Shown here piece after piece: positions 1-12,566 of a stretch of 64,000 nt of DNA (the first letter of the stretch is position 1; the number at the start of each line of letters is the position of its first letter). The translations under genes were made by a program, and so were the position numbers. The DNA is taken from the NCBI RefSeq assembly GCF_001953865.1, contig NZ_MQUQ01000008.1:1-64000 (forward strand), read 5' to 3'. The notes under the pieces were generated by a model. That model did no database searches. It was not told where the DNA came from and saw only the letters and a program-made list of their open reading frames with translations. This DNA is from Amycolatopsis coloradensis (GTDB lineage Bacteria > Actinomycetota > Actinomycetes > Mycobacteriales > Pseudonocardiaceae).

Positions 1-44
1 GCCACTTTCGGGACATCTGATGTCCCGAAAGTGGCTTTCGCGAC
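1..44. repeat. Nested palindromic repeat, family A, copy 1 (cut by window edge)
   Basis: This is the right-hand 44 bases of a 57-bp element whose full copies lie at 21865, 42663 and 57346. It reads as a long inverted repeat centred on GACATCTGATGTC, and each arm itself contains a small palindrome (CGAAAG-TGG-CTTTCG in the right arm). It sits 30 bases beyond the stop codon of the MFS gene at 74, so it could act as that gene's terminator hairpin. The left end lies outside the window. Confidence 0.85.
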
Positions 45-73: not shown

Positions 74-1333
74 CTACTGAGGACTCGCGGCGGGGAACGT
101 GAACTGCGCGGGGTTCTGCGGCACCCAGAACGCCATCACGGCGGCGAGGAAGGTGGTGCCGATGAGGAACCCGAACGCGGCGGTGTAAGAGAAAGCGTCG
201 GCGAGCCAGCCCATCGCCACCGGGGCGACCGCGCCCGCCACCTGGCCGCCGAAGTTCATCACGCCCATGCCGATCCCGGTGACCTCCGTGGGCAGCACGC
301 GTAACGGCAGGCCGAAGACGGCCATCGTCGCCATGCCGAACACCGCGAGGGCGAGCGTTTCGTAGAGGGTGAACTCCGCCGTGCTGTCCGCGTTGACCAT
401 CAGGATCAGCAGCACCACGGTCGCCATCGCGATCGAGCTCAGGTACCAGCGGCCGTGGTCGTGGAAGTAGCGGTCGAACAGCCAGCCGCCGAGGATGGTG
501 GTGCCGATGCTGACCAGCATCGGGATCGCGGCGAGGACACCGGTCTGGCTCAGTGTCAGGCCCCGCGTCTCCAGCAGATAACTGGGGACCCAGGTGATCA
601 GGCCGTAGTTCAGCATGTTGGTGACGCAGAACAGCAGGGTGAACTTCCAGACCACGAAGGACTTCAGTACCTGTTTGCGCGAGACCGCGGGCGGCGCCGT
701 CTCGTCACGGGGTAGACTGCTCAGCTCCTTGGGAAGCGCTTTCGGCAACAGCGTCCAGACGATCACGCCGATGATCGCACCGATCCCCGCCATCCAGAAG
801 AACGTGTGCCGCCAGCCGATCGCCATCAGCAGCGGCCCGACGATCAGCGGCGCCAGCCCCGCGCCGATCCCGCCGGCGGACAGCATCACGCCGGTCACCG
901 TCGCACGGTTGCCGGGGGTGGTCCGTTCCGCGATCGCCTTGAACGAGGCCGCCGGGAAAAGCCCTTGGCACACCCCGAAAAGGCCGCGGACGACCAGCAG
1001 CATGCCGAAGGTGCCCGCCAACCCGGTCATCGCGGTGAACGCCGACCAGAGCAGCAAGGTCACCAGCATCGGCCCGCGAGAGCCGTACCGGTCGGCGAGG
1101 AAACCCGCCGGGATCTGGCAGACCATGTAGACCAGCGCGAACACGGTCACGAGCCAGCCTTGCTGGGTCTTGCTGAGGTCGAATTCGGCGCCGATCATCG
1201 GCAGCGCCATCCCGATCGAGAACCGGTCGATGTAGTCGACCGCCCAGGCGAAGACCATCACCACCATGGTGATGAGCGCCGTCCGGTTGATCCGCCGCGC
1301 TGTCCAGGTGTCCTCTTTGACCACTGTCGTCAT
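74..1333 (-). CDS. MFS transporter (ACS-like, organic anion or amino-acid type)
   Basis: A 419-residue, 12-helix major facilitator. The N-terminal segment with WAVDYIDRFSIGMALP followed by DLSKTQQGW is typical of the anion:cation symporter (hexuronate/galactonate-like) branch of the MFS. I chose the ATG at 1333 because GGAGG lies 7 bases upstream; the reading frame stays open 46 codons further but without a site. It is the last gene of a minus-strand run (deacylase, M20 peptidase, GNAT, racemase, PucR, MFS), so the likely cargo is an amino acid, N-acyl amino acid or related carboxylate. That cargo is inferred from context only. Confidence 0.85.
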   Translation of the reverse strand: MTTVVKEDTWTARRINRTALITMVVMVFAWAVDYIDRFSIGMALPMIGAEFDLSKTQQGWLVTVFALVYMVCQIPAGFLADRYGSRGPMLVTLLLWSAFTAMTGLAGTFGMLLVVRGLFGVCQGLFPAASFKAIAERTTPGNRATVTGVMLSAGGIGAGLAPLIVGPLLMAIGWRHTFFWMAGIGAIIGVIVWTLLPKALPKELSSLPRDETAPPAVSRKQVLKSFVVWKFTLLFCVTNMLNYGLITWVPSYLLETRGLTLSQTGVLAAIPMLVSIGTTILGGWLFDRYFHDHGRWYLSSIAMATVVLLILMVNADSTAEFTLYETLALAVFGMATMAVFGLPLRVLPTEVTGIGMGVMNFGGQVAGAVAPVAMGWLADAFSYTAAFGFLIGTTFLAAVMAFWVPQNPAQFTFPAASPQ

Positions 1334-1483
1334 GGCGCCTCCGCGGAAACGTTGGGAGAGAAGGAGAACGGCGCCGCCGTGGCGCCGATCACTCATTCTG
1401 AACAGCGGGTGGCGAGCAGAGTTCGTGCGTTCCCACGAACATCCGGAGGTCTTTCGGGCGCGGTGGACCAACTCCGCCGGTGG

Positions 1484-3154
1484 TCAGGACTCCTCGGCCG
1501 GCGCCCCGGTCTGGGTGTCACGGGGCAGTAGCCGGAGTTGCAGCATGGCCGCGAACCGCTCCCCCGCGTCGTCGAGGTCGATCTCGCCGACCTCGGCGAG
1601 GCGCCGCAGCCGGTACCGGAAGGTGTTCGGGTGGACGTAAGCCGCGGCGGACGCGGCACCGATGTCACCGAAGGCGTCCAGCCAGCACCGCAGGGTGTGC
1701 ACCAGTTGTGACTGATGCTGAGCGTCGTAGGCGAGAAGCCGCGCGACAGGCCCTGTCGCGACGTCTCCCCTCGCCACGGCGAGATCGGCCAGCTCCAGCA
1801 TGAGCGCGTCGACGTGGACGTCTTCCACGGTCGCGACGCGTTTCGCGCGGGCGTTGGTGAGCAGCACGCGCAATGCCCGGTCGGCGCCGTCACGCGAGGC
1901 ACGCAGGCCGGAGCCGTCGAGCGCGAGCGGTCCGATGCCGATCGCGGCCGCCGCCCGGCGTCCGGTGCGCTCCAGGAAGGTCGACGCGACCCGAACCGAA
2001 CGCTCCTGGCAGTCGGCGTGACTGCCAGGCATCGGGACGATTCCGTAAGCGACGTCGCCGACGAGGGCGACGGCCGAACGCGGCTGGACGGCACTGAGGT
2101 GCATGGCCAGCGCGTCGGCGACCCGCTGGCGGTCGGCGACCAGTCGGAGATCGTCGTCCGGGGCGGACGCGCCGAGCAGCCCCATGGCGAGCACGATCGA
2201 CGGCTGGCCGAGCAGGCCCAGCCGGGCGATGGCCTCCGGAGCCCCGGCCCCGCCTTCGAGCGCCGTGCTCACCAGATCCGCACGCAGCCGCCGTTCGACG
2301 TCGGCACCCGCGCGCAGCCGGAGCATGTGCAGCGCGACCAGCTTGGCGGCGTCGATGAACGCCTGGGTCCGCTCCTCGCTGAGCGGTTCCCGGACCGCTG
2401 CCCAGATCGACCCGAGCACTTCGTCGCCAGCGCGGACGGCGAGCGCCACACGCGGGATGGTGATCTCGTTGTCGTCGTAACGCTGCGGATCGACGTAGAC
2501 AGGTGTGTGGTCGCGGTACAGCCTCTCGAAGACACCGTCCCGTTCCAGACCGCGGGTGAACCGCTCCGGCACCTGCCTGCCGAGGATGGTCTCGACCCGG
2601 GACGGGTCCGCTTCGTCTTGGCGCCCGGAAAACGAGAGGACCCGCGAGTTGCGGTCCTCGATGGTCACCGGCGCGTCCAGCAGCGCCGCGACCGCGTTGG
2701 CCAGTGCGAAAAGATCACCGGACGGCATCCCGCCGAGGGTCTGCGGCGAGACCTCACCGACGTCTCCCTCGGCGAGCAACGTCCTGAGCATGGCGGCGAG
2801 CTGGGCCCAGGAGGCGCCGCGCGCGAGCCCGAGCAGGGCGACCCCGGACGAGTCCGCGGCGCGCCGGAGTTCCGGCGTCGGGGTGACGGGAGACCGGACG
2901 ACGAGCGCCGCCGCGCCGCTCGCACCCACGTCGTGCAAGAGGCGGACGATCTCGTCGGGATCCCGCACCCCGACGCCGAGCACGACGGCCTTGGCGGGAA
3001 ATTCGGACTCGTCGTGCGGATCGTGGATGACCACCCCGCCGAGCTGCTTGCGGGTGGTCCGGCCGACCGCGATCGGCTCCAGGAGCACGTCCCCGAGGTC
3101 TTCGAGGACGCGCCCCAAACTCGTATGTGGCTTGCTGGGCACCGGTGTCAGCAC
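1484..3154 (-). CDS. PucR/CdaR family transcriptional regulator
   Basis: A 556-residue regulator. The N-terminal third (about 10-130) matches the PucR purine-catabolism sensor domain, the middle is a GGDEF-like CdaR region, and the last 60 residues carry the PucR-type helix-turn-helix with the signature AYVHPNTFRYRLRRL. The start is GTG at 3154 with a run of G just upstream. PucR-family activators usually respond to the substrate of neighbouring catabolic genes. Here the gene lies 76 bases after the racemase and 150 bases before the MFS transporter, all on one strand, so it is the candidate regulator of the whole N-acyl-amino-acid set. Confidence 0.9.
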   Translation of the reverse strand: MLTPVPSKPHTSLGRVLEDLGDVLLEPIAVGRTTRKQLGGVVIHDPHDESEFPAKAVVLGVGVRDPDEIVRLLHDVGASGAAALVVRSPVTPTPELRRAADSSGVALLGLARGASWAQLAAMLRTLLAEGDVGEVSPQTLGGMPSGDLFALANAVAALLDAPVTIEDRNSRVLSFSGRQDEADPSRVETILGRQVPERFTRGLERDGVFERLYRDHTPVYVDPQRYDDNEITIPRVALAVRAGDEVLGSIWAAVREPLSEERTQAFIDAAKLVALHMLRLRAGADVERRLRADLVSTALEGGAGAPEAIARLGLLGQPSIVLAMGLLGASAPDDDLRLVADRQRVADALAMHLSAVQPRSAVALVGDVAYGIVPMPGSHADCQERSVRVASTFLERTGRRAAAAIGIGPLALDGSGLRASRDGADRALRVLLTNARAKRVATVEDVHVDALMLELADLAVARGDVATGPVARLLAYDAQHQSQLVHTLRCWLDAFGDIGAASAAAYVHPNTFRYRLRRLAEVGEIDLDDAGERFAAMLQLRLLPRDTQTGAPAEES

Positions 3155-3230
3155 CCCCCGAAGTTAAACTCGGTTTCGCCGAACCGATCGGTCCGTCTCA
3201 ACCAAATCTAACCCCGGGATTCGTAGCACG

Positions 3231-4337
3231 CTACGAACTGATCCACGCCTTCGCCTTCGTGACCTCGTCCAGCAGATCCGGGATCGGGGTCACGCCGAGG
3301 CCTGGCCCGGTCGGGACCGGGAGATGTCCGGACTCCAGTACGAACGGCTCGGTGATGTCCGTGCGGTAGAACCGGCCGGACGCCGACGTGTCACCAGGAA
3401 GGGTGAAGCCCGGCAGCGAGGCGAGCGCGACGTTCGCCGCCCGGCCGAGACCGGTCTCGATCATCCCGCCGCACCACACCGCGACCCCGTGTGCCGCGCA
3501 GACGTCATGCACCCGGCGGGCTTCGAGGTAGCCGCCGACACGGCCCGGTTTGATGTTGACGATCTGGCAAGCGCCGAGCTTGATCGCGTCGGCGGCGGAC
3601 CTCGCGGACACGATCGACTCGTCGAGGCAGATCGGTGTCCGGATCCGCTTGGCCAGTTCGGCGTGGCCGAGGACGTCCTCCTCCTCCAGTGGCTGCTCGA
3701 TCAGCAGGAGGTCGAACGGGTCCAACCTGCCCAGCAGCGGCGCGTCACCGAGGGTGTACGCGGTGTTCGCGTCGACCTGGAGCAACACGTCTTCGCCGAA
3801 GCGCTCCCGCACCTGACGCACCGGCTCGACGTCCCAGCCCGGTTCGATCTTCAGCTTGATGCGGACATAGCCCTCGTCCAGGTACCCGCCGACGACGTCG
3901 AGCAACTGCGGGATCGAGTCCATGATCCCGACCGAGACCCCGCAAGCCACCGAGTCGCGGGTCGACCCGAGTTCCGCCGCGAAGGACCTGTCGTGCGCAC
4001 GGAGTTCGGCGTCGAGGACAGCCATCTCCAGCGCGGCCTTCGCCATCCGGTGGCCCTTGAACTTCGCCAGCAGCGGCGTCACCTTGTACGCGGTCACGTC
4101 CTCGGCCGCCAGCAGGGCCGGGATCAAATGGTTCCGCAGCACGTGCTCGGCGGCGTCGTTGTACTCCGACGAGTAGAGCGGAGCCTCCATCGCGACGCAT
4201 TCGCCCCAGCCCTCGCCCGTCGGCGTCACCGCGCGTACGAGCAGCAGCTCCCGTTCCGCCTGTGTCCCGAACGACGTCCGGAACGGGGCCACGAGCGGCA
4301 TCCGGACCCGGCGCAGTTCCACACCGCTGAGTTTCAC
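3231..4337 (-). CDS. N-acyl(succinyl)amino-acid racemase / o-succinylbenzoate synthase, enolase superfamily
   Basis: A 368-residue enolase-superfamily protein, the exact length of the Amycolatopsis N-acylamino-acid racemase (NAAAR). The KxK pair is K161 and K163, the metal ligands are D189, E214 and D239, and the partner base is K263, all at family numbering. Members interconvert N-acyl or N-succinyl D- and L-amino acids and many also make o-succinylbenzoate for menaquinone. Context argues for the amino-acid role: no men genes are near, while a GNAT acyltransferase and an M20 deacylase are. The start is GTG at 4337 with AAGGAG six bases upstream, overlapping the GNAT stop by 4 bases (GTGA), so the two are translationally coupled. 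Confidence 0.95.
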   Translation of the reverse strand: MKLSGVELRRVRMPLVAPFRTSFGTQAERELLLVRAVTPTGEGWGECVAMEAPLYSSEYNDAAEHVLRNHLIPALLAAEDVTAYKVTPLLAKFKGHRMAKAALEMAVLDAELRAHDRSFAAELGSTRDSVACGVSVGIMDSIPQLLDVVGGYLDEGYVRIKLKIEPGWDVEPVRQVRERFGEDVLLQVDANTAYTLGDAPLLGRLDPFDLLLIEQPLEEEDVLGHAELAKRIRTPICLDESIVSARSAADAIKLGACQIVNIKPGRVGGYLEARRVHDVCAAHGVAVWCGGMIETGLGRAANVALASLPGFTLPGDTSASGRFYRTDITEPFVLESGHLPVPTGPGLGVTPIPDLLDEVTKAKAWISS

Positions 4338-5218
4338 GACTGCTCCTTCGAGATCACGTACCAGCCGGCACGATCGAAACCGGCGACCTTGGCGTTGTCC
4401 GCCATCAGTCCGCCGAGGACTTCGCGCAGGGCGACACGCCACGCGTTGCCGCGACCGGGATCGGTGCGGCGTAACCGTTCGACATCCGGGGGAACGCCCA
4501 CGAGCACGGTCGGTGTGTCGGCGGACCCGATGACCGGGCCGCCGTCGGAGTCGACCGAGAGTGCCTTCGCCGCGCCCAGCGCTTCCGCGTCGATCAGGAC
4601 AGGTTCACCGGAGGCGGCGGCGCGGACGTCCGGGCTCGTCAGGTCCCAGCCGACCATCAGCCGGTCGGTGTCGCCCGAGCCGTTGATGCCGTCCTCCATC
4701 GGACCGTAGAAGTCGGGCAGGTAACCGATCGGCCGCGCACTGAGCTTCGTCAGGTTGAAGTAAGCGTTGCGCCGCACCAGCGGGTCAAAGGTCCAGGTGA
4801 TCAACGAGACGTCCTGGTGCAGCGCCCAGCCACGCTGGTGCAGTTTGAGCGCGGCCCCGATTCCCCGGCCCGCGCCGGCGTCGGCGACCCCGGCGATATG
4901 ACTGTGCAGGCTCGCTTTCCCCGGGTTGCCGAAGAAACCGAAGCAGGCCCCCAGGAGTTCGCCGTGCTCGAACGCCCCCGCGACGTAATTCCCGGCCGTG
5001 GACATCGCACGGAGCAGTTCCGTGCTCACCGGCCGGGCGCCGGGCGCGAACTTCCAGATCGACTCGAACAGGCCGACCACCGCCGCCAGATCGGCGATTT
5101 CGGTGAGTTCGCGGATTTCGACGCCCGAAGCCACGGCCGCGGCCCGTGCGGTGGCGGCGGCTTCGTCGCGCACCTCCCGGGCAACCAGGCTTTCCGTATT
5201 CGTCGCAAGATTCGTCAC
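4334..5218 (-). CDS. GNAT-family N-acyltransferase (likely amino-acid N-succinyl/acyltransferase)
   Basis: A 294-residue GNAT-fold protein of the type found beside enolase-family racemases. The central region has a GAGRGIGAALK acyl-CoA pyrophosphate loop (about residues 135-145) and the conserved WTFDPL and AYFNLTKLSA stretches. In Geobacillus a GNAT succinyltransferase, an N-succinylamino-acid racemase and a desuccinylase together turn D- into L-amino acids, and the same three activities are adjacent here. The start is GTG at 5218 with AAAGGA eight bases upstream. Its stop overlaps the racemase start by 4 bases. The acyl donor (succinyl-CoA or another) cannot be told from sequence. Confidence 0.85.
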   Translation of the reverse strand: MTNLATNTESLVAREVRDEAAATARAAAVASGVEIRELTEIADLAAVVGLFESIWKFAPGARPVSTELLRAMSTAGNYVAGAFEHGELLGACFGFFGNPGKASLHSHIAGVADAGAGRGIGAALKLHQRGWALHQDVSLITWTFDPLVRRNAYFNLTKLSARPIGYLPDFYGPMEDGINGSGDTDRLMVGWDLTSPDVRAAASGEPVLIDAEALGAAKALSVDSDGGPVIGSADTPTVLVGVPPDVERLRRTDPGRGNAWRVALREVLGGLMADNAKVAGFDRAGWYVISKEQS

Positions 5219-5249
5219 GGGACAATCCTTTCCCGGCCCGGCGGCCGAG

Positions 5250-6392
5250 TCACTGTCGTGCCGTACCAGATTCGCCCGCGGGATTCGTCGCGCCGGACGG
5301 ACCTCGCTTCGCGAGGACGTTTTCCACCAGCGCGCCGAGCAAAGCGGTGCGCCGCGGCAATTCCGCGACGACGACGTGTTCGTCATCCGCGTGTGCCCCG
5401 CCGCCGACGGCACCGAGACCGTCGAGAGTGGGAATCCCCATCCCAGCGGTGTAATTGCCGTCCGAGGCGCCGCCGACCGACGCCGAAGTCAGCTCGCCGA
5501 GGCCGAGTTCGCCCGCCAATTCCTGGGCCAGCGCGAACAATCCCGCCGACGAACCCTCTTCCAAGGGCGGCCGGTTGATCCCGCCGGTGACGCGGACCTC
5601 CGCGCCCTCCAAAACCGGCCGGAGTTCCCGCATCGCCCGGTCGACCCGGAGTTGCTCGGCCTCGTTCCACACCCGGACGTCGACCGCCACGCTCGCGGCC
5701 GCCGGAACGGTGTTCACCGTCGTTCCCGCCGAGACGACCGTGGGGGTCACACTGGTCCCGGCTTCCGGGTCGGCGATCGCGGCCGCCGCGAGGACCTGGT
5801 GGGCGATCTCGATCCCCGCGTTGATCCCCTTCTCCGGTTCGAGCCCGGCGTGCGAGGCCCGGCCGACGACCTCGATCCGATACTGGGAAACACCTTTGCG
5901 GCGGCATTTCAGCGCGCCGCCGTCGGCCGAGGCCTCCAGTACGAACGCCGCGTCGCAACCGGCCGCCGTCTCTTCGATGAGAGCACGGGAAGACGGCGAG
6001 CCGATTTCCTCGTCGCCGGTGACCAAAATGGACAGTCCGGTGCGGTCGGGTACCGTCGCGGCGGCGTGCAACGCCATCACGACCCCGGCCTTCATGTCGA
6101 AGCAGCCAGGGCCGCGCAAGACGCCGTCCCGCACGGAGAACGGGTGAGTCTCCAGAGAACCGTGGGGCCACACCGTGTCATGGTGCCCCAGGAGCAGCAC
6201 GCGCGCCGGTCCGTCGCCGAACCGCCAGCGCAGATGGGTGACGCCGTCGACGACGATCCGCTCCGGCTCCACGCCGAGCAGTCTCCGGCCGACACCCGCG
6301 ACCACCTCGGCGCTGCGGGCGACGGCGTCGTGATCCGAAGACGGGGACTCGCAACGGATCAGGGTCTCGATGTCTGCGAGCAGTTCGCTCAC
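5250..6392 (-). CDS. M20 family metallopeptidase (carboxypeptidase G2-like deacylase)
   Basis: A 380-residue dinuclear zinc M20 hydrolase. It has HHDTVWP (first ligand and catalytic Asp), GPGCFDMKAG (bridging Asp), GDEEIGS (catalytic Glu and ligand Glu) and, near the C-terminus, GGGAHADDEH supplying the last histidine. The insert between about 175 and 290 is the dimerisation domain. The family removes N-acyl groups or C-terminal glutamate. Next to the racemase the expected job is L-specific removal of the N-acyl (succinyl) group. The start is GTG at 6392, overlapping the stop of the upstream amidohydrolase by 4 bases (GTGA). Confidence 0.9.
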   Translation of the reverse strand: MSELLADIETLIRCESPSSDHDAVARSAEVVAGVGRRLLGVEPERIVVDGVTHLRWRFGDGPARVLLLGHHDTVWPHGSLETHPFSVRDGVLRGPGCFDMKAGVVMALHAAATVPDRTGLSILVTGDEEIGSPSSRALIEETAAGCDAAFVLEASADGGALKCRRKGVSQYRIEVVGRASHAGLEPEKGINAGIEIAHQVLAAAAIADPEAGTSVTPTVVSAGTTVNTVPAAASVAVDVRVWNEAEQLRVDRAMRELRPVLEGAEVRVTGGINRPPLEEGSSAGLFALAQELAGELGLGELTSASVGGASDGNYTAGMGIPTLDGLGAVGGGAHADDEHVVVAELPRRTALLGALVENVLAKRGPSGATNPAGESGTARQ

Positions 6393-7864
6393 CGCGGCTC
6401 ACCCCGCAGTGGCTCGCCGGGGAAGGCGTCGGCGCGCAGGTTCCCGTCGGTGACCACCGGAACGCCCGAAACGAACAGGTGCCGGACGCCGACGGACGGC
6501 CGGATCGGGTCGACGTAGGTCGCCGCGTCGGTGATGACGTCCGGGTCGATCACGACGATGTCCGCGTCGGCCCCGACGTCGAGCCTGCCCTTTGCCCGCG
6601 CTGCCGGGGCGACCTCGTCGAGGACACGCGCCGGCAGGTAGGAGCAGCGCCGGAACGCCTCCAGCCAGGTCCACGCCTTGCTTTCCCGCACCATGAGGCG
6701 CAACGTCTTGGCGTACGTGCCGGCCGTGCGCGGATGCGTCGCCCCGCCGGGCGGCAGCGGCCATTCGGTGCTCTCGCTGGTGCCGTCCTTCCAGTACACG
6801 GGCAGGGCGTCGCTGGCGACGATGGCGTCGGGGAACACGAGCGCCTGACGCAGCAGTTCGAGGTCGCGGGGGTTGCCCTCGTCGAGGAACTCCAGGATGC
6901 ACGGCGCACCCGAATCCTCGGCACGCACCTGGAGCAGGCGTTTCTCGTCCGCGATCCGCTCCCCCGTCTCCAGCATGATCACACTGGACGGTGAGAGCCC
7001 CTTCATCTTCAGCCGCTCGGGCGAGAGGAAGGCGGCGCCGATCCCCGTGCTTCCCGCGCCGTACGGATAGGCCTCCACGGTCACCCTCGACCCGGCCGAA
7101 CGGCTCGCCTCCAGCGCGGCGAGCACCCGGTCGATCTGGTGGCCGGACGTGCTGTTCACATGGCAGTGGTGCATCGCGGCGCCGGTCTCGGCCGCGACGA
7201 TCGCGATTTCCTCCGACCCGTCGACAGGGGTCGCGGGATCCACCTCGACCAGTTCCCGGACGTGCGTGTAGGTCGGCGCCTCGGCCTCCTTGGCGAGCCG
7301 CGCGAGAGCCACGAACTCAGCAGGGTCCGTCAGAGGCGCATAACCGAGCAGCACGCCGACGCCGAGCGCACCCGCGGCCAGCTCACCCTCCACGAGGGAC
7401 AGCCAGCCCTTCAGTTCGGCGGGCGACGAAGACCGTTGCCAGGCGGGGTTCCCGAGCACCGCGAGGCCGCTGTCGATGTTCGCGTCGGGCTCGATCCCGG
7501 CGAGCACCTGTGCCCTGGCGGAGCCCCACGACGCGGAAAACCCGTAGTGCAGCGGACGTCCTGCCGCGGCGGCTTCGGCGTACGCGCGCTCGATCGGCAT
7601 CAGCCCGGCTTCGAGATCGAGCGCGGTGGTGACGCCGTCCATCGCCTGTAGCCGCTGGCCCGCGATGGTGTGCACGTGACTGTGCAGATCGATGAAACCT
7701 GGTCCGACGACGAGCCCGGAGACGTCGATCTCCCTGTCGCCGGGCTGCGCGGCCAGACCCTCCCCCACGGCGGTGACCACCCCGCCGGATACCAGCACGT
7801 CGGCCGTGCCGTCGAACCCCGTCGCCGGATCGATGACACGACCGCCACGCAAGAGTGTCCGCAT
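6389..7864 (-). CDS. Amidohydrolase of the N-acyl-D-amino-acid deacylase family
   Basis: A 491-residue amidohydrolase-superfamily enzyme with the metal motif HSHVH near residue 60 inside GPGFIDLHSHVH, and the late SDALPVYWKDG segment typical of D-aminoacylases. The family removes the acyl group from N-acyl-D-amino acids or D-glutamate derivatives. It is the first gene of the minus-strand unit: ATG at 7864 with AGGAGG seven bases upstream, and its stop overlaps the M20 start by 4 bases. Combined with the racemase and the M20 enzyme it would let both enantiomers of an N-acyl amino acid be used. Substrate preference is not visible. Confidence 0.85.
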   Translation of the reverse strand: MRTLLRGGRVIDPATGFDGTADVLVSGGVVTAVGEGLAAQPGDREIDVSGLVVGPGFIDLHSHVHTIAGQRLQAMDGVTTALDLEAGLMPIERAYAEAAAAGRPLHYGFSASWGSARAQVLAGIEPDANIDSGLAVLGNPAWQRSSSPAELKGWLSLVEGELAAGALGVGVLLGYAPLTDPAEFVALARLAKEAEAPTYTHVRELVEVDPATPVDGSEEIAIVAAETGAAMHHCHVNSTSGHQIDRVLAALEASRSAGSRVTVEAYPYGAGSTGIGAAFLSPERLKMKGLSPSSVIMLETGERIADEKRLLQVRAEDSGAPCILEFLDEGNPRDLELLRQALVFPDAIVASDALPVYWKDGTSESTEWPLPPGGATHPRTAGTYAKTLRLMVRESKAWTWLEAFRRCSYLPARVLDEVAPAARAKGRLDVGADADIVVIDPDVITDAATYVDPIRPSVGVRHLFVSGVPVVTDGNLRADAFPGEPLRGEPR

Positions 7865-7994
7865 TGCTTAGCCTCCTAGATCGCCTCGTTCATGGCGACA
7901 CTAGGAGGTTTCGCGAGACGTCCGTTCGTAGCCGGCGACGAATCCGCGCCACCGGATCCATCCGCCCGGACGAACGTTCAAGCCGGGCTTCGCC

Positions 7995-8103: not shown

Positions 8104-9471
8104 CTAGCGGCCGTGGTGCTCCGAAATGATCTCGGCGTACCGGTGCCCACTCGCCTTGACCGTGCGGATCTGGGTGTCGTAGTCGACCCGCACGAGCCCG
8201 AACCGTTTGCTCAGCCCACTGTCCCACTCGAAGTTGTCGAGCAGAGACCAGGCGAAGTACCCCTTCACCGGAGCCCCGGCTTCGGCCGCCCCGGCCACCG
8301 CGCTCAGATGTTCTTCGAGGTAGGCGATGCGGTCGGCGTCGTCGATCGAGCCGTCCTCGGCGACCTTGTCGTCGAAGGCGGCGCCGCTCTCGGTGACGTA
8401 GATGGCCCGGGCGCCGTATTCATCGGCGAGCCGGTGGATCAGGTCCGCCAGCCCCTGGCCGTGGATCTCCCAGCCCATCGCGGTGGTGGCGGCTCCCTCG
8501 ACGGGCACCTGCCTGGCGCGCGGCGCGGAACCGTTCGGGTCGTCCTCGACGATCTGCCGGAAGTAGTAGTTCAGCCCGTGGTAGCCGACCGGAGCCGAGA
8601 TCACCTCGAGATCGTCCCCGAGCACGGGCGGCTCGACACCGTAGACCTCGATCATGTCCGCCGGGTAGCCGCGGCCGTTCGACGGATCGAGCCACCAGCG
8701 GTTGACGTGTCCGTCCATCCTGGCCGCCGCCTCGACGTCCTCGACGGAGTCCGACGCGGGCTCGATCCCGCTGAGGTTGACCACCAACCCGACGTTCGCG
8801 GGCTCGGCGGCGTTCGCGGTGATCGCTTGCACGCCGAGGCCGTGCGCCAGCAGAAGGTGGTGGGAAGCATGGATGGCCTGTTTCAGGTCCTTGATCCCGG
8901 GCGCGAAACGCCCTTCGAGGTAGCCGAGCCACGCCGAACACAACGGTTCGTTGACGGTGTTCCAGTCCTTGACGCGGTCACCGAGTTTCGCCGCGACGAC
9001 GGCCGCGTAGTCGGCGAAGGCGTAGACCGTGTCGCGCTCGGGCCAGCCGCCCTTGGCCTGGAGTACCGAGGGCAGGTCCCAGTGGAACAACGTGACGAAC
9101 GGCCGGATCCCGGCTTCGAGCAACGCGTCGACCAGTCGATCGTAGTGGTCGAGGCCGAGCGCGTTGACCTCGCCGCGCCCGGTGGGGATCACCCGCGGCC
9201 AAGCGACCGAGAAGCGGTAGGCGTCGAGACCCAGTTGCCTCATGATCCCGAGATCCTCCGGCCAGCGCCGGTAGTGATCGCACGCGACGTCGGCGGTGTC
9301 GCCGTTCAGGACGGCACCCGGGACCCGGACGAAGTCGTCCCAAATGGACGGGAGGCGGCCGTCGACGTCGACGGCGCCTTCGACCTGGTACGAGGCGGTG
9401 GCCGCACCCCACAGGAAATCGGCGGGCAGGTGCAGATTCAAGACAGACCTCTCTTCGACGATGCGAGTCAT
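8104..9471 (-). CDS. GH1 family beta-glucosidase
   Basis: A 455-residue glycoside hydrolase family 1 enzyme. The acid/base glutamate is in [15 protein letters not shown] (about 170) and the nucleophile is in YVTESGAAF (about 355), where the usual ITENG asparagine is serine. The N-terminal [15 protein letters not shown] and the C-terminal [16 protein letters not shown] aglycone/glycone motifs are intact. There is no signal peptide, so it acts on sugars imported by the linked ABC transporter. The start is ATG at 9471, overlapping the permease stop by 4 bases (ATGA). It is the last gene of a four-gene uptake-and-hydrolysis operon. Confidence 0.95.
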
Positions 9472-10307
9472 TTGACGGCGCCGGCGGTGAGCCCGGCGAC
9501 GAGGTAGCGCTGGAGCAGGAGGAAACCGGCGACGACCGGGACGGACACGATCAGCGAGGCGGCCATGACCTGGTTCCAGTAGACCTGGACCTGGGTGGAG
9601 TACTCCTGGAGGCCGACGGCGAGGGTCCGCGTGCCCGAGTCGGTCATCACCGACGCGAACAGGACCTCGCCCCAGGCCGTCATGAACGAGTAGATCCCCA
9701 CCGCCACGATGCCCGGCATCGCCGCGGGGACGACCACGCGGATCAGCGCGCCGAGCGGCCCGGTGCCGTCGACCATCGCCGCCTCGTCCAGTTCCTTGGG
9801 GATCGAGTCGATGTAGCCGGCGAGCATCCAGATGGCGAACGGCAGTGAGAAGGTCAGGTAGGTGATGATCAGCCCGAGCCGGGAGCCGTACAGGACGATG
9901 CCCGTGGTGTTGCCGATGTTGACGAAGATGAGGAACAGCGGCAGCAGGAACAGGATGCCGGGGAACATCTGCGTGGACAGCACGGTCAGCTTGAAGAAGT
10001 TCTTGCCCCGGAACCGGAAACGGCTCAGCGCGTAGGCCGCGAAGATCGCGATCACCACCGAGAGGATCGCCGCCGAACCGGAGATGACCAGACTGTTCAC
10101 GAAGTATTCGGCGAGCGGGATGGTCTCCCAGATGTCGAAGAACGGCTGGATGGTCAGCGTCGTCGGGAACCACTCCCACTTGCCTTGCACGTCCCCGAGC
10201 GGCTTCAGCGACGAGGAGACCATCGCGTAAAGCGGCACCAAGGTGAACAGGGCGAGGAAACCGAGGACGAAGCGACGGGCCCACGGGACCCAGCGAGGAT
10301 CAGACAA
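9468..10307 (-). CDS. Carbohydrate ABC transporter permease (MalG type)
   Basis: A 279-residue inner-membrane permease with six predicted helices and the cytoplasmic EAA loop ([20 protein letters not shown], about residues 178-197) that docks the ATPase. The start is TTG at 10307 with AAGGAA about six bases upstream, overlapping the partner permease by 8 bases. No ATP-binding subunit is encoded here, so the importer must use a shared MsiK-like ATPase encoded elsewhere, as is common in actinomycetes. Confidence 0.93.
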
Positions 10308-11253
10308 CGGTGTTCCTTCTCATCGTCAGTCCCAAGTAGACGGTGCTGACGATGAGAAGGAACACCAGCAACAGCACCGACATCGCCGAACCGAGACCGA
10401 AGTTCCAGGTCACGAAGGAACTCTGGTAGATGTGGATCGAGATCAGCGACGCCTCCTTCGGCGCGGACGCTCCGAAAAGGACATACGGCGTGTTGAAGTC
10501 GTTGAAGGTCCAGAGGAACAGCACCAGCAGCAGGACCTGGTTGACCGGGCGCAGCATCGGCTGGGTGATCGCCTGGAACTGCCGCCACCAGCCCGCGCCG
10601 TCGATCGACGCCGCCTCGTACAGTTCGCCGGGGATGTTCTGCAGCCCGGCCATCACGATCAGGAACGCGAACGGCCAGTTGCGCCAGACCGAGACGACCA
10701 CCAGCGACCAGAAGCTGTTGTCCCCGATGAGCCAGAAGGAATCGGTGCCCAGCAGGCTGTTCACCAGGCCGGTGTCGCGCTGGAACATGAACGACCAGGT
10801 GATCACCGCGGCGTACATCGGCAGCGCGTACGGCACCAGGAACAAGGTGCGGAGCACGCCGCGGCCGCGGAAGTTCTTCTGCATCAGCACGGCGGCCGAG
10901 GTCCCGAAGAGCCAGCAGAACCCGACCGAGAGGACCGTGTAGAGGACGCTGATCCAGAACGAGCCCAGCAGCGCCTTCCCCGCCGCGGAATTGAAGTCCA
11001 GGACGAACTCGTAGTTGTCCAGTCCCGCCGCCGGTGCGGACGAGAAGTCCCGGATGGAGAACTGCGTCAGCTTGAAGAAGCTCATCACGAGCCCGGCGAT
11101 CATCGGGATCACGTGGACGAGCAGTTCGAGCAGGATCGCGGGGAGCAGGAGCAGATACGGCAGCGCGACCCGGCGCCGCTTGCGCCGGACGCGCTGGGGC
11201 CCTGGCGCCCCGGCCACTTTCACGGCCGGGGCGTTGTCGAGAGCGGTCGGCAT
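10300..11253 (-). CDS. Carbohydrate ABC transporter permease (MalF type)
   Basis: A 317-residue sugar permease with a basic N-terminus (VRRKRRR) before the first helix and an EAA loop (YEAASIDGAGWWRQFQAITQP). I start it at ATG 11253, which shares one base with the stop of the solute-binding protein gene (TGATG); a TTG one codon earlier is also possible. It forms the heterodimeric channel with the gene at 9468. Confidence 0.93.
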   Translation of the reverse strand: MPTALDNAPAVKVAGAPGPQRVRRKRRRVALPYLLLLPAILLELLVHVIPMIAGLVMSFFKLTQFSIRDFSSAPAAGLDNYEFVLDFNSAAGKALLGSFWISVLYTVLSVGFCWLFGTSAAVLMQKNFRGRGVLRTLFLVPYALPMYAAVITWSFMFQRDTGLVNSLLGTDSFWLIGDNSFWSLVVVSVWRNWPFAFLIVMAGLQNIPGELYEAASIDGAGWWRQFQAITQPMLRPVNQVLLLVLFLWTFNDFNTPYVLFGASAPKEASLISIHIYQSSFVTWNFGLGSAMSVLLLVFLLIVSTVYLGLTMRRNTVV

Positions 11254-12566
11254 CAACTACCGGCCGCGATCTGCTGATCCGCTTGGTTCAGCTGGTCCCG
11301 GATCTTGGCGTCGTCGACCGGTTCGCCGGCCGCGACGTCGGCGAACATCGCCTTCATCGCGGTGCCGATCAGGGTCTCGAACTGCGACTCCTGCGGGACC
11401 TGCGGCATCGGCTCCGCCGAATTCGCGAGGACACTCTGGAAGACCTTGACGTCGTCGGTCTGGAACGCCGCGTCGCTGTAGGCGTCCTGGACGGTCGGCA
11501 GCGAGCCGTAGGTCTTGTTGAGCAGTGCCTGCTCCGGAGCCGAGACCATGAACTTCACGAAGTCCAGTGCGGCGTCGGGGTTCTTCGTGTTCTTGAAGAC
11601 CGACATGTTGATCCCCGCGACGAAGCTCGTCACTTTCCGGCCGTTCGGCGGCGCGGCGGCGGGCAGCGGGATCGGCGCGACGCCGAGGTTCGCCATGTCC
11701 ATCCCGATGTTCTTGAACGAGCCCGCGGAAGCCTGGTTCATGAACATCGCGGCCTTGCCGTCCGACAGATCCTTGAGAGACTTCGCGGTGTCGGCGTACT
11801 CGGCGTTGGACGGATTGACGATCTTGTCCTTCTGCATCAGGTCGACGAACCGCCGCACGGCCGCGACCGACGGATCCGAAGCCAGCTGCGGCTTGCCATC
11901 GGGAGTGAAGAACTGCGCGCCCTGCTGGGCTCCGAGGATCGCCGCGTGGTGGCTGTTCTCGGTGACCTGGCCCGCCTGGAGCGACATACCCCACTGACCC
12001 TTGTCGGGTTTGGTGAGCTTCTTGCCGTCACCGACGAGTTCTTCCCAGGTGGCTGGCGGCTTGGTGATACCGGCCTCGGCGAAGAGTTTCTTGTTGTAGT
12101 ACAGGCCGTACGCCTGGCCGTAGAGCGGTACGCCGACCGGCGGCTGGCCGCTCGCCCCGGTGGCCGCCAGTGACGGGCCGAGGAACCGGGACTTGCCCCC
12201 GATCTTCTCCAGCGCGGCGTCGTCGAACGGCAAGAACGCCCCGGTCGCCTGAAGCGAAGCCGACCAGGTGTTGCCGATGTTGAGCACGTCCGGCCCCTTG
12301 CCCGACGTGGTGGCCGCGAGGATCCGGTTGAGCAGATCCGTCCACGGGACGACCTCGAGCTTGACCTTGATCCCGGAGGACTTCTCGAACTTGTCGAGTT
12401 CCGGCTGGAGGGCCGCCTTGTCGTTGTCGAGACTGGTGCCCTGGTTGGACGCCCAGTACACGAGCTCCTGGGGAGCGCTGGACGACGTGCCGCCGCCACC
12501 GCACGCCGTCGTGGTGGCGGCCGCCAGCGCCAGGACGAGCGCTGGAGCGATCTTTCCGATTCGCAT
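11253..12566 (-). CDS. Extracellular sugar-binding lipoprotein of an ABC importer
   Basis: A 437-residue family 1 solute-binding protein with a short lipoprotein signal peptide: basic MRIGK, a hydrophobic stretch, then a lipobox ending in TTAC-G at about Cys22. It is expected to be anchored outside the membrane and to deliver an oligo- or disaccharide to the two permeases. The linked intracellular beta-glucosidase suggests a beta-linked glucoside such as cellobiose. The start is ATG at 12566 with GAGGA about seven bases upstream. An operator-like palindrome lies 66 bases upstream. Confidence 0.93.
   Translation of the reverse strand: MRIGKIAPALVLALAAATTTACGGGGTSSSAPQELVYWASNQGTSLDNDKAALQPELDKFEKSSGIKVKLEVVPWTDLLNRILAATTSGKGPDVLNIGNTWSASLQATGAFLPFDDAALEKIGGKSRFLGPSLAATGASGQPPVGVPLYGQAYGLYYNKKLFAEAGITKPPATWEELVGDGKKLTKPDKGQWGMSLQAGQVTENSHHAAILGAQQGAQFFTPDGKPQLASDPSVAAVRRFVDLMQKDKIVNPSNAEYADTAKSLKDLSDGKAAMFMNQASAGSFKNIGMDMANLGVAPIPLPAAAPPNGRKVTSFVAGINMSVFKNTKNPDAALDFVKFMVSAPEQALLNKTYGSLPTVQDAYSDAAFQTDDVKVFQSVLANSAEPMPQVPQESQFETLIGTAMKAMFADVAAGEPVDDAKIRDQLNQADQQIAAGS

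Follow-up and report, generated by a model that had tools for sequence, protein, structure and literature searches.

The Geobacillus N-succinylamino acid racemase (NSAR) pathway, reportedly described by Sakai et al. in 2006, is said to consist of a GNAT succinyltransferase, the racemase itself and an L-desuccinylase. A locus of related composition lies on the minus strand at positions 74 to 7864 of a 64,000-nucleotide stretch from Amycolatopsis coloradensis (contig NZ_MQUQ01000008.1, positions 1 to 64,000; hereafter the window, whose base 1 is the start of the contig, here called C56). The two systems are alike in the three activities as judged by family, in the adjacency of the genes and in a predicted irreversible exit through an L-deacylase. 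They differ in that the M20 peptidase of the window is carboxypeptidase-G2-like, and in that an amidohydrolase, an oligopeptide importer, serine hydrolases, a PucR-type regulator and a repeated DNA dyad come in addition.

Two other described systems are close. The first is the Amycolatopsis enzyme known as N-acylamino acid racemase (NAAAR), NSAR or o-succinylbenzoate synthase (OSBS), represented by PDB entries 1SJA and 7S8W; the solved NAAAR is presumably that of strain T-1-60. The window racemase is about 89% identical to it over the full length and keeps its catalytic residues, and what sets the window racemase apart is that its genome context is known. The second is the DgcN-DgcA route, in which DgcA is an enolase-superfamily enzyme. 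This D-glutamate route of other bacteria likewise has a D-amino acid N-acylated, racemised and released as the L form, and the accessible portions of the papers that describe it tie no importer or peptidases to it (PMC10845958, PMC11747546). DgcA was rejected as an identity for the window racemase, which scores 81.1 bits with NF042940, far under the cut-off of 400. Both Geobacillus and Amycolatopsis racemases have served as tools: the G. kaustophilus NSAR in tandem with an L-succinylase and the Amycolatopsis enzyme in cascades, according to the accessible portion of one source (PMC7431475).

We propose, with a probability of roughly 0.55, that the window carries the proximal half of an island that is controlled by PucR and serves to take up and recycle peptides that contain D-amino acids. 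Peptides would be brought into the cell by an oligopeptide ATP-binding cassette (ABC) importer encoded on a second contig, C21, and cleaved in the cytoplasm by serine hydrolases of the beta-lactamase/DD-peptidase superfamily, an S9 peptidase fusion and the amidohydrolase, with release of D-residues. The GNAT would then N-acylate the D-amino acid from acyl-CoA, the racemase would interconvert the N-acyl-D and N-acyl-L forms, and the M20 enzyme would deacylate only the L form and so draw the net flux towards L-amino acids. The dyad TTCGT-N8-ACGAA would be the site at which a regulator, in all likelihood the PucR of the island, acts. Gene content, order and conservation, like the racemase residues and the dyads, are read directly from the DNA; from these we infer all substrates and stereospecificities, including the presence of D-residues in the peptides. 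Acylation, racemisation and L-deacylation are the only steps that rest on a described pathway, which we take to be that of the Geobacillus NSAR. The N-acyl conversion core is thus already known, and what appears to be new is the extent of the island and its shared dyad. Neither the island nor its regulator was found in the open full-text literature (PMC), a search with subscription journals mostly outside its scope, so that absence from print is not implied. If the proposal is true, D-amino-acid conversion is tied to peptide uptake and a ready regulator-operator pair is at hand.

The genes and sites of the window locus are as follows.
6389..7864, minus strand: amidohydrolase of the PRK09061/NF006560 family, first gene of the run (NF006560, 651.6 bits against a curated cut-off of 340)
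5250..6392, minus strand: M20 metallopeptidase, carboxypeptidase-G2-like, proposed N-acyl-L-amino-acid deacylase (PF01546/PF07687)
4334..5218, minus strand: acyltransferase of predicted GNAT fold, proposed D-amino-acid N-acyltransferase
3231..4337, minus strand: N-acyl/N-succinylamino acid racemase (NAAAR/NSAR) of the MR_MLE fold (match to 1SJA, 735.8 bits)
1484..3154, minus strand: PucR/AdeR-type regulator, proposed dyad binder (PF13556, HTH_30)
74..1333, minus strand: major facilitator superfamily (MFS) carrier (PF07690, 214.7 bits)
7925..7942, unstranded: exact TTCGT-N8-ACGAA dyad upstream of the amidohydrolase gene
3220..3237, unstranded: exact TTCGT-N8-ACGAA dyad upstream of the PucR gene, overlapping the racemase stop
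1422..1439, unstranded: exact TTCGT-N8-ACGAA dyad upstream of the MFS gene
5284..5301, unstranded: weaker dyad with one mismatch, in the 3' end of the M20 gene and upstream of the GNAT gene
1..44, unstranded: hairpin repeat at the edge of the contig, in reverse complement identical to the first 44 bases of C21

The open reading frame (ORF) coordinates bear out the six consecutive same-strand genes of the initial annotation, and the two GTGA couplings that it named are both present as 4-base overlaps, between amidohydrolase and M20 at 6389-6392 and between GNAT and racemase at 4334-4337. The GNAT gene starts 31 bp past M20, most likely at the GTG at 5218, and the MFS gene most likely starts at the ATG at 1333. 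Gaps of 76 bp before PucR and about 150 bp before MFS, each with its own upstream dyad, mean that a single transcript over 74-7864 is not implied. Hidden Markov models placed all but the GNAT in families (NF006560, Peptidase_M20, MR_MLE, PucR HTH_30 and MFS_1); the best NCBIfam match of the regulator is AdeR, at 127.6 bits against a cut-off of 700.

Conservation was assessed at the best 80 of 217 amidohydrolase loci found, 72 of which have full flanks, with presence of a gene in the flanks judged by bit-score thresholds set for this analysis. The controls were 40 stretches of 17.5 kb on contigs of these same genomes; they were picked by hand at round coordinates and lie clear of the island. 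M20, GNAT and racemase genes were all present in the flanks of 39/80 loci, and in 37/80 the four genes from amidohydrolase to racemase stood in window order on one strand (L046 and L081 are rearranged). The complete set of six in window order was seen at 14 of the 80. Genera with the unit include Amycolatopsis, Kutzneria, Streptomyces, Solihabitans and Leucobacter. GNAT and racemase without M20 were found at three loci (L007, L022 and L048), M20 only at four, and other partial sets at two, one of which (L040) lies on a 4.3-kb contig. The genomes of L007, L022 and L048 have M20 homologues of 63-75% identity elsewhere, and in two of these a stop codon interrupts the stretch that matches. The racemase was also searched for in genomes from the 38 loci that lack it in their flanks: all 28 genomes tested encode one of 59-78% identity elsewhere, and in 15/28 it lies within 20 kb on the same contig.

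The unit had initially been described as complete and self-contained; that description does not stand, because the contig begins at base 1 of the window, the next genes very probably lie on C21, and an oligopeptide importer and serine hydrolases accompany the window genes. In relatives that include L005, L012 and L015 the gene after MFS encodes a class-A beta-lactamase-like protein, whose A. coloradensis orthologue (89% identity) is found at the very start of C21. The genes that follow there are given below.
125-1036, C21: PF13354 hydrolase (class-A-like)
1157-2545, C21: PF00144 (S12-type) hydrolase
2542-3429, C21: second PF13354 hydrolase
3454-5052, C21: SBP_bac_5 binding protein
then to 12229, C21: OppB, OppC/D, OppF and an S9 peptidase-PF00144 fusion ending at 12229

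The fusion joins the S9 peptidase and a PF00144 domain in a single protein of 1103 residues (L118:8918-12229), and the S9 part occurs at the same place in L222, L140 and L154. The starts of C56 and C21 have 44 identical bases, one as the reverse complement of the other, inside a hairpin repeat. This repeat, with arms GCGAAAGCCACTTTC and GAAAGTGGCTTTCGC, recurs in the window at 27-41 (the contig edge), 21870-21916, 42668-42714 and 57351-57397, and a copy at the contig end probably broke the assembly; since it recurs, the 44-base overlap is not unique and we infer the join. In A. oliviviridis (L012 and L222) the whole order stands on one contig, which supports the join, and so does a Streptomyces plasmid, on which these genes form a single run and MFS and one hydrolase have moved upstream.

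Serine hydrolases were found in the flanks of 57/80 amidohydrolase loci and importer genes in those of 33/80, against none of the 40 controls in either case. Among the 35 full-flank loci without a racemase the counts were 23 for serine hydrolases and 21 for importer genes. The amidohydrolase thus accompanies both kinds of gene even where the racemase is not adjacent. A search for the binding protein in the genomes of 19 of 20 loci (L032 was left out) placed it near the locus in 15, on the same strand in 14 as counted by hand from coordinates.

The dyad came to light as conserved half-sites in an alignment of 16 amidohydrolase upstream regions. Exact TTCGT-N8-ACGAA sites occur three times in the 64-kb window (1422, 3220 and 7925) against 0.07 expected, a number reached in none of 100 shuffles. 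The 42 operon loci (0.72 Mb) hold 84 exact dyads and the 40 controls (0.70 Mb) one; as the loci are related, these counts are not independent. Alternative spacers of 4 to 13 gave at most two sites each in the operon loci, and the letters of the spacer vary among loci at constant spacing. Exact sites lie upstream of the amidohydrolase gene at 33/42 loci, of PucR at 22/29, of MFS at 13/17 and of GNAT at 11/41; with one mismatch allowed, the counts become 38/42, 27/29, 16/17 and 31/41. The Streptomyces plasmid has four dyads, among them one before each of two PucR genes. PucR homologues were present in all 11 genomes tested, and at L217 a PucR gene with no adjoining island has a dyad just upstream. 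PucR is the likely, if unproven, dyad binder on these grounds. The whole genome has 28 exact dyads in 9.05 Mb, three of them in the window. Copies outside the window were rejected as further regulon members, 12 of the 15 examined lying in coding-like frames (the others are L211, L213 and L214). At the Flexivirga locus L051, which has no flanking racemase, exact dyads stand at 7882 and 11178, upstream of the amidohydrolase and of a serine hydrolase.

GNAT, racemase and M20 together form the N-acyl D-to-L module that the initial annotation had recognised, and the comparison of loci agrees with it. The GNAT matches no Pfam or NCBIfam model at E 0.001. Its label was assigned because of the predicted fold and the annotation of homologues in plasmid records. 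In the predicted structure (predicted local distance difference test score, pLDDT, 89.6) about 170 of the 294 residues make up a GNAT fold, and a C-terminal part comes in addition. Foldseek returned a best E of 2.9e-8 and a template modelling score (TM) of up to 0.83 of the target. Its top matches include phosphinothricin-acetyltransferase-type enzymes. Homologues were found in 57/296 genomes of the phylum, its own included, and among the best-scoring loci from these, 28 of the 29 examined outside its own genome have the racemase adjoining (L089 is the exception). The M20 enzyme has carboxypeptidase G2 as its nearest solved relative, with the metal-site motifs aligned, and NF004788 as its best NCBIfam match, below cut-off. 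The same set of three occurs in other phyla with other M20 subfamilies. In Lysinibacillus, Cytobacillus and Priestia the M20 protein next to the racemase exceeds the TIGR01891 cut-off, and that of D. ficus is PRK06446-like, below cut-off. These differing subfamilies suggest that M20 enzymes were recruited repeatedly for the same step.

The amidohydrolase had been read as a D-specific deacylase. Its structure gave Z scores of 36.4-37.0 with nine D-aminoacylase-type and PpOngB entries, and at most 31.1 with the remaining rows listed. The best matches are N-acyl-D-glutamate deacylase, D-aminoacylases and the carbohydrate deacetylase PpOngB; with N-acyl-D-glutamate deacylase 3GIP and D-aminoacylase 1M7J the fold is shared at a Z of about 37 over 424-425 residues (2.6 A). 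The NCG cysteine is a metal-site residue of D-aminoacylases. Unlike 3GIP, 1M7J and two annotated D-aminoacylases, which have the NCG motif, the window enzyme has LEAG at this place and four cousins have LE(A/V)G; nor does it have a counterpart to the lysine of the D-aminoacylase HHK. The D-aminoacylase label was dropped on these two absences despite the fold. Glu85, which precedes the lost cysteine by a single column of the alignment, is invariant in 31 sequences. Some D-aminoacylase relatives accept L-X-D-Y dipeptides, and distant cousins (39-51% identity) have DAO-type oxidoreductases near L142 and L144 and MlrC-type M81 peptidases near L142 and L143, neighbourhoods that hint at D-residues; the best match of one of the DAO-type proteins is D-amino acid dehydrogenase, below cut-off. 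A tentative extension, which we hold with rather less confidence than the island itself, would have an actinobacterial regulon for D-residue peptides of peptidoglycan or nonribosomal source, in which PucR senses a D-amino acid or peptide and binds the dyad, and the amidohydrolase belongs to a new D-residue-releasing class (an L-X-D-Y dipeptidase, for example) with Glu85 replacing the cysteine at the metal site. A subfamily to which NCBIfam gives no function would gain clear candidate substrates if peptide recycling is the purpose of the island.

The best surviving alternative is that of the initial annotation, a closed D-to-L operon whose amidohydrolase would be a D-acylase and catch the N-acyl-D product as well. 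The core of GNAT, racemase and M20 would be explained, as would the nearness of the amidohydrolase fold to N-acyl-D-glutamate deacylase and D-aminoacylase. A D-deacylase acting on the D-acyl product would, however, undo the GNAT step, and the pair would be a futile cycle that burns acyl-CoA; the amidohydrolase is for this reason placed upstream of the GNAT, where release of D-residues from small peptides entails no such cycle and fits the importer. With the D-aminoacylase cysteine and lysine absent and further genes accompanying the unit, the closed operon is unlikely.

A little less likely again is the scavenging of N-acyl-amino acids or N-acyl-peptides, by which the S9 peptidase would release the acylated residues, the amidohydrolase would deacylate the D form and M20 the L form, the racemase would balance the two and the GNAT would be secondary. 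The S9 fusion in the island suits this scheme, and so do the 4/80 loci at which amidohydrolase and M20 stand with neither GNAT nor racemase in the flanks, in direct tandem at L038 and L062. The GNAT is, however, the most constant partner of the racemase, even in stretches that lack the amidohydrolase.

In the preferred reading, peptide uptake and recycling, the C21 hydrolases would act in the cytoplasm. With N-termini judged by eye, none of the serine hydrolases has an evident signal peptide, and the binding protein has a lipobox-like stretch at its N-terminus. The class-A-like pair has the SxxK, SDN and KTG motifs; the class-A ExxLN pattern was looked for in both and is absent. Another function would be self-protection, in which the beta-lactamase-like enzymes do the work and break down peptide or beta-lactam antibiotics. 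It could draw on the two class-A-like and two S12-type domains and on the PDB relatives of the S12-type enzyme (DD-peptidase, ClbP and alkaline D-peptidase), but was set aside as a main role and is very improbable, since no signal peptides are evident by eye, ExxLN is missing, and the link with an importer and with the conversion of amino acids suggests nutrition.

The racemase aligned with 1SJA over 368/368 residues, its identity of about 89% being a hand count on the printed alignment. It keeps K161, K163, D189, E214, D239, K263 and R266. The same residues were found in 94/94 homologues, one of which has a match that does not include K263/R266. We take K161/K163 (KxK) and K263 to be the acid/base lysines and D189, E214 and D239 the metal ligands. 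R266 is a marker of racemase specificity; in one solved chain, 7S8W, the alignment has Q at this position. From the identity with the studied enzyme, the window racemase would be expected to act on N-acyl amino acids. It also exceeds the TIGR01928 menC cut-off (314.6 against 200.65 bits), and the accessible part of a 2014 review holds OSBS to be the relevant function of the Amycolatopsis enzyme (PMC4215206). The genome nevertheless has a separate OSBS on contig C45, at 447 bits with the actinobacterial OSBS model NF002782 (cut-off 288), and a menB above its cut-off on contig C7. No men cluster was recognised around the C45 gene, where ten ORFs were scanned and only MoeA and OSBS could be named, and no men gene was found among seven window proteins scanned around the racemase. 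Because of the separate OSBS and menB, the racemase probably serves the known N-acyl route that leads from D- to L-amino acids. A physiological role in menaquinone synthesis, as in the review, was dropped as the main one; it is unlikely in A. coloradensis, where the dedicated enzyme is present and R266 is kept in the racemase, and we give it hardly any weight. What the racemase does physiologically becomes directly testable through the island, the separate OSBS and the shared dyad.

Several observations weigh against the recycling of D-residue peptides as proposed here. Its weakest step is the proposed role of the serine hydrolases as D-peptidases, because the S12-type enzyme has esterase relatives: PF00144 includes esterases, the best NCBIfam match is the ester hydrolase AcmB (119.6 bits against a cut-off of 550), and the best PDB match is 'IS11', with carboxylesterases listed beside DD-peptidases. 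Together with amino-acid-type transporters in other phyla, these relatives weaken the peptide step. On D. radiodurans pMP1, racemase and GNAT flank a family 3 (amino-acid-type) binding protein, and the ABC transporter beside the racemase of Sulfitobacter is annotated for amino acids, not for peptides. Nitratireductor has the racemase/menC family with no GNAT, and in Cytobacillus M20 and racemase stand with no annotated GNAT nearby. In 4/19 genomes (L008, L022, L041 and L046) no strong match to the binding protein lay near the locus. Among the controls, a more distant Opp importer scores below the threshold in L166 (OppF, 171 bits), and weaker matches to Opp or S9 occur in L175 and L176. The absence from the amidohydrolase of the residues that define D-aminoacylases also counts here, as does the join of C56 to C21, very probable on indirect grounds. 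At 32 of the 80 amidohydrolase loci the flanks hold none of M20, GNAT and racemase, and 3/42 operon loci are without M20. The 38 amidohydrolase loci that lack the racemase (0.63 Mb) have only five exact dyads. Four loci (L046, L048, L081 and L084) have no exact dyad, with PucR in or near three of them, and a lone PucR in L216 has none either. The 42 operon loci, finally, are mostly from Amycolatopsis and are not independent.

Related arrangements occur outside Amycolatopsis, and those of Deinococcus sp. QL22 and of an Arthrobacter plasmid count in favour of the proposal. In Deinococcus sp. QL22 the racemase and GNAT genes are followed directly by those for two permeases, a binding protein and a PF00144 hydrolase. 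A Lysinibacillus plasmid carries a peptide MFS carrier, M20, GNAT and racemase. The Arthrobacter plasmid, from the phylum of the window, combines M20, GNAT and racemase with serine hydrolases, an M19 dipeptidase and a PucR homologue. The record CP031730.1 (L152), filed as a Stenotrophomonas rhizophila plasmid, has annotated genes and positions nearly the same as those of the Lysinibacillus fusiformis plasmid (L150), and its organism assignment may be wrong.

Among the amidohydrolase cousins L141, L142, L143 and L144, a CobW-type GTPase gene comes next in three alphaproteobacteria; MlrC-type M81 peptidases are upstream in two, and DAO-type or DJ-1 genes are near others. The cousins may thus be metal enzymes with their own metallochaperone.

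Upstream of the window locus, on the same strand, a cluster with a GH1 beta-glucosidase and a sugar ABC transporter occupies positions 8104-12566. A GH1 gene lies near the island at merely 8/80 loci, so that this cluster is probably outside it.

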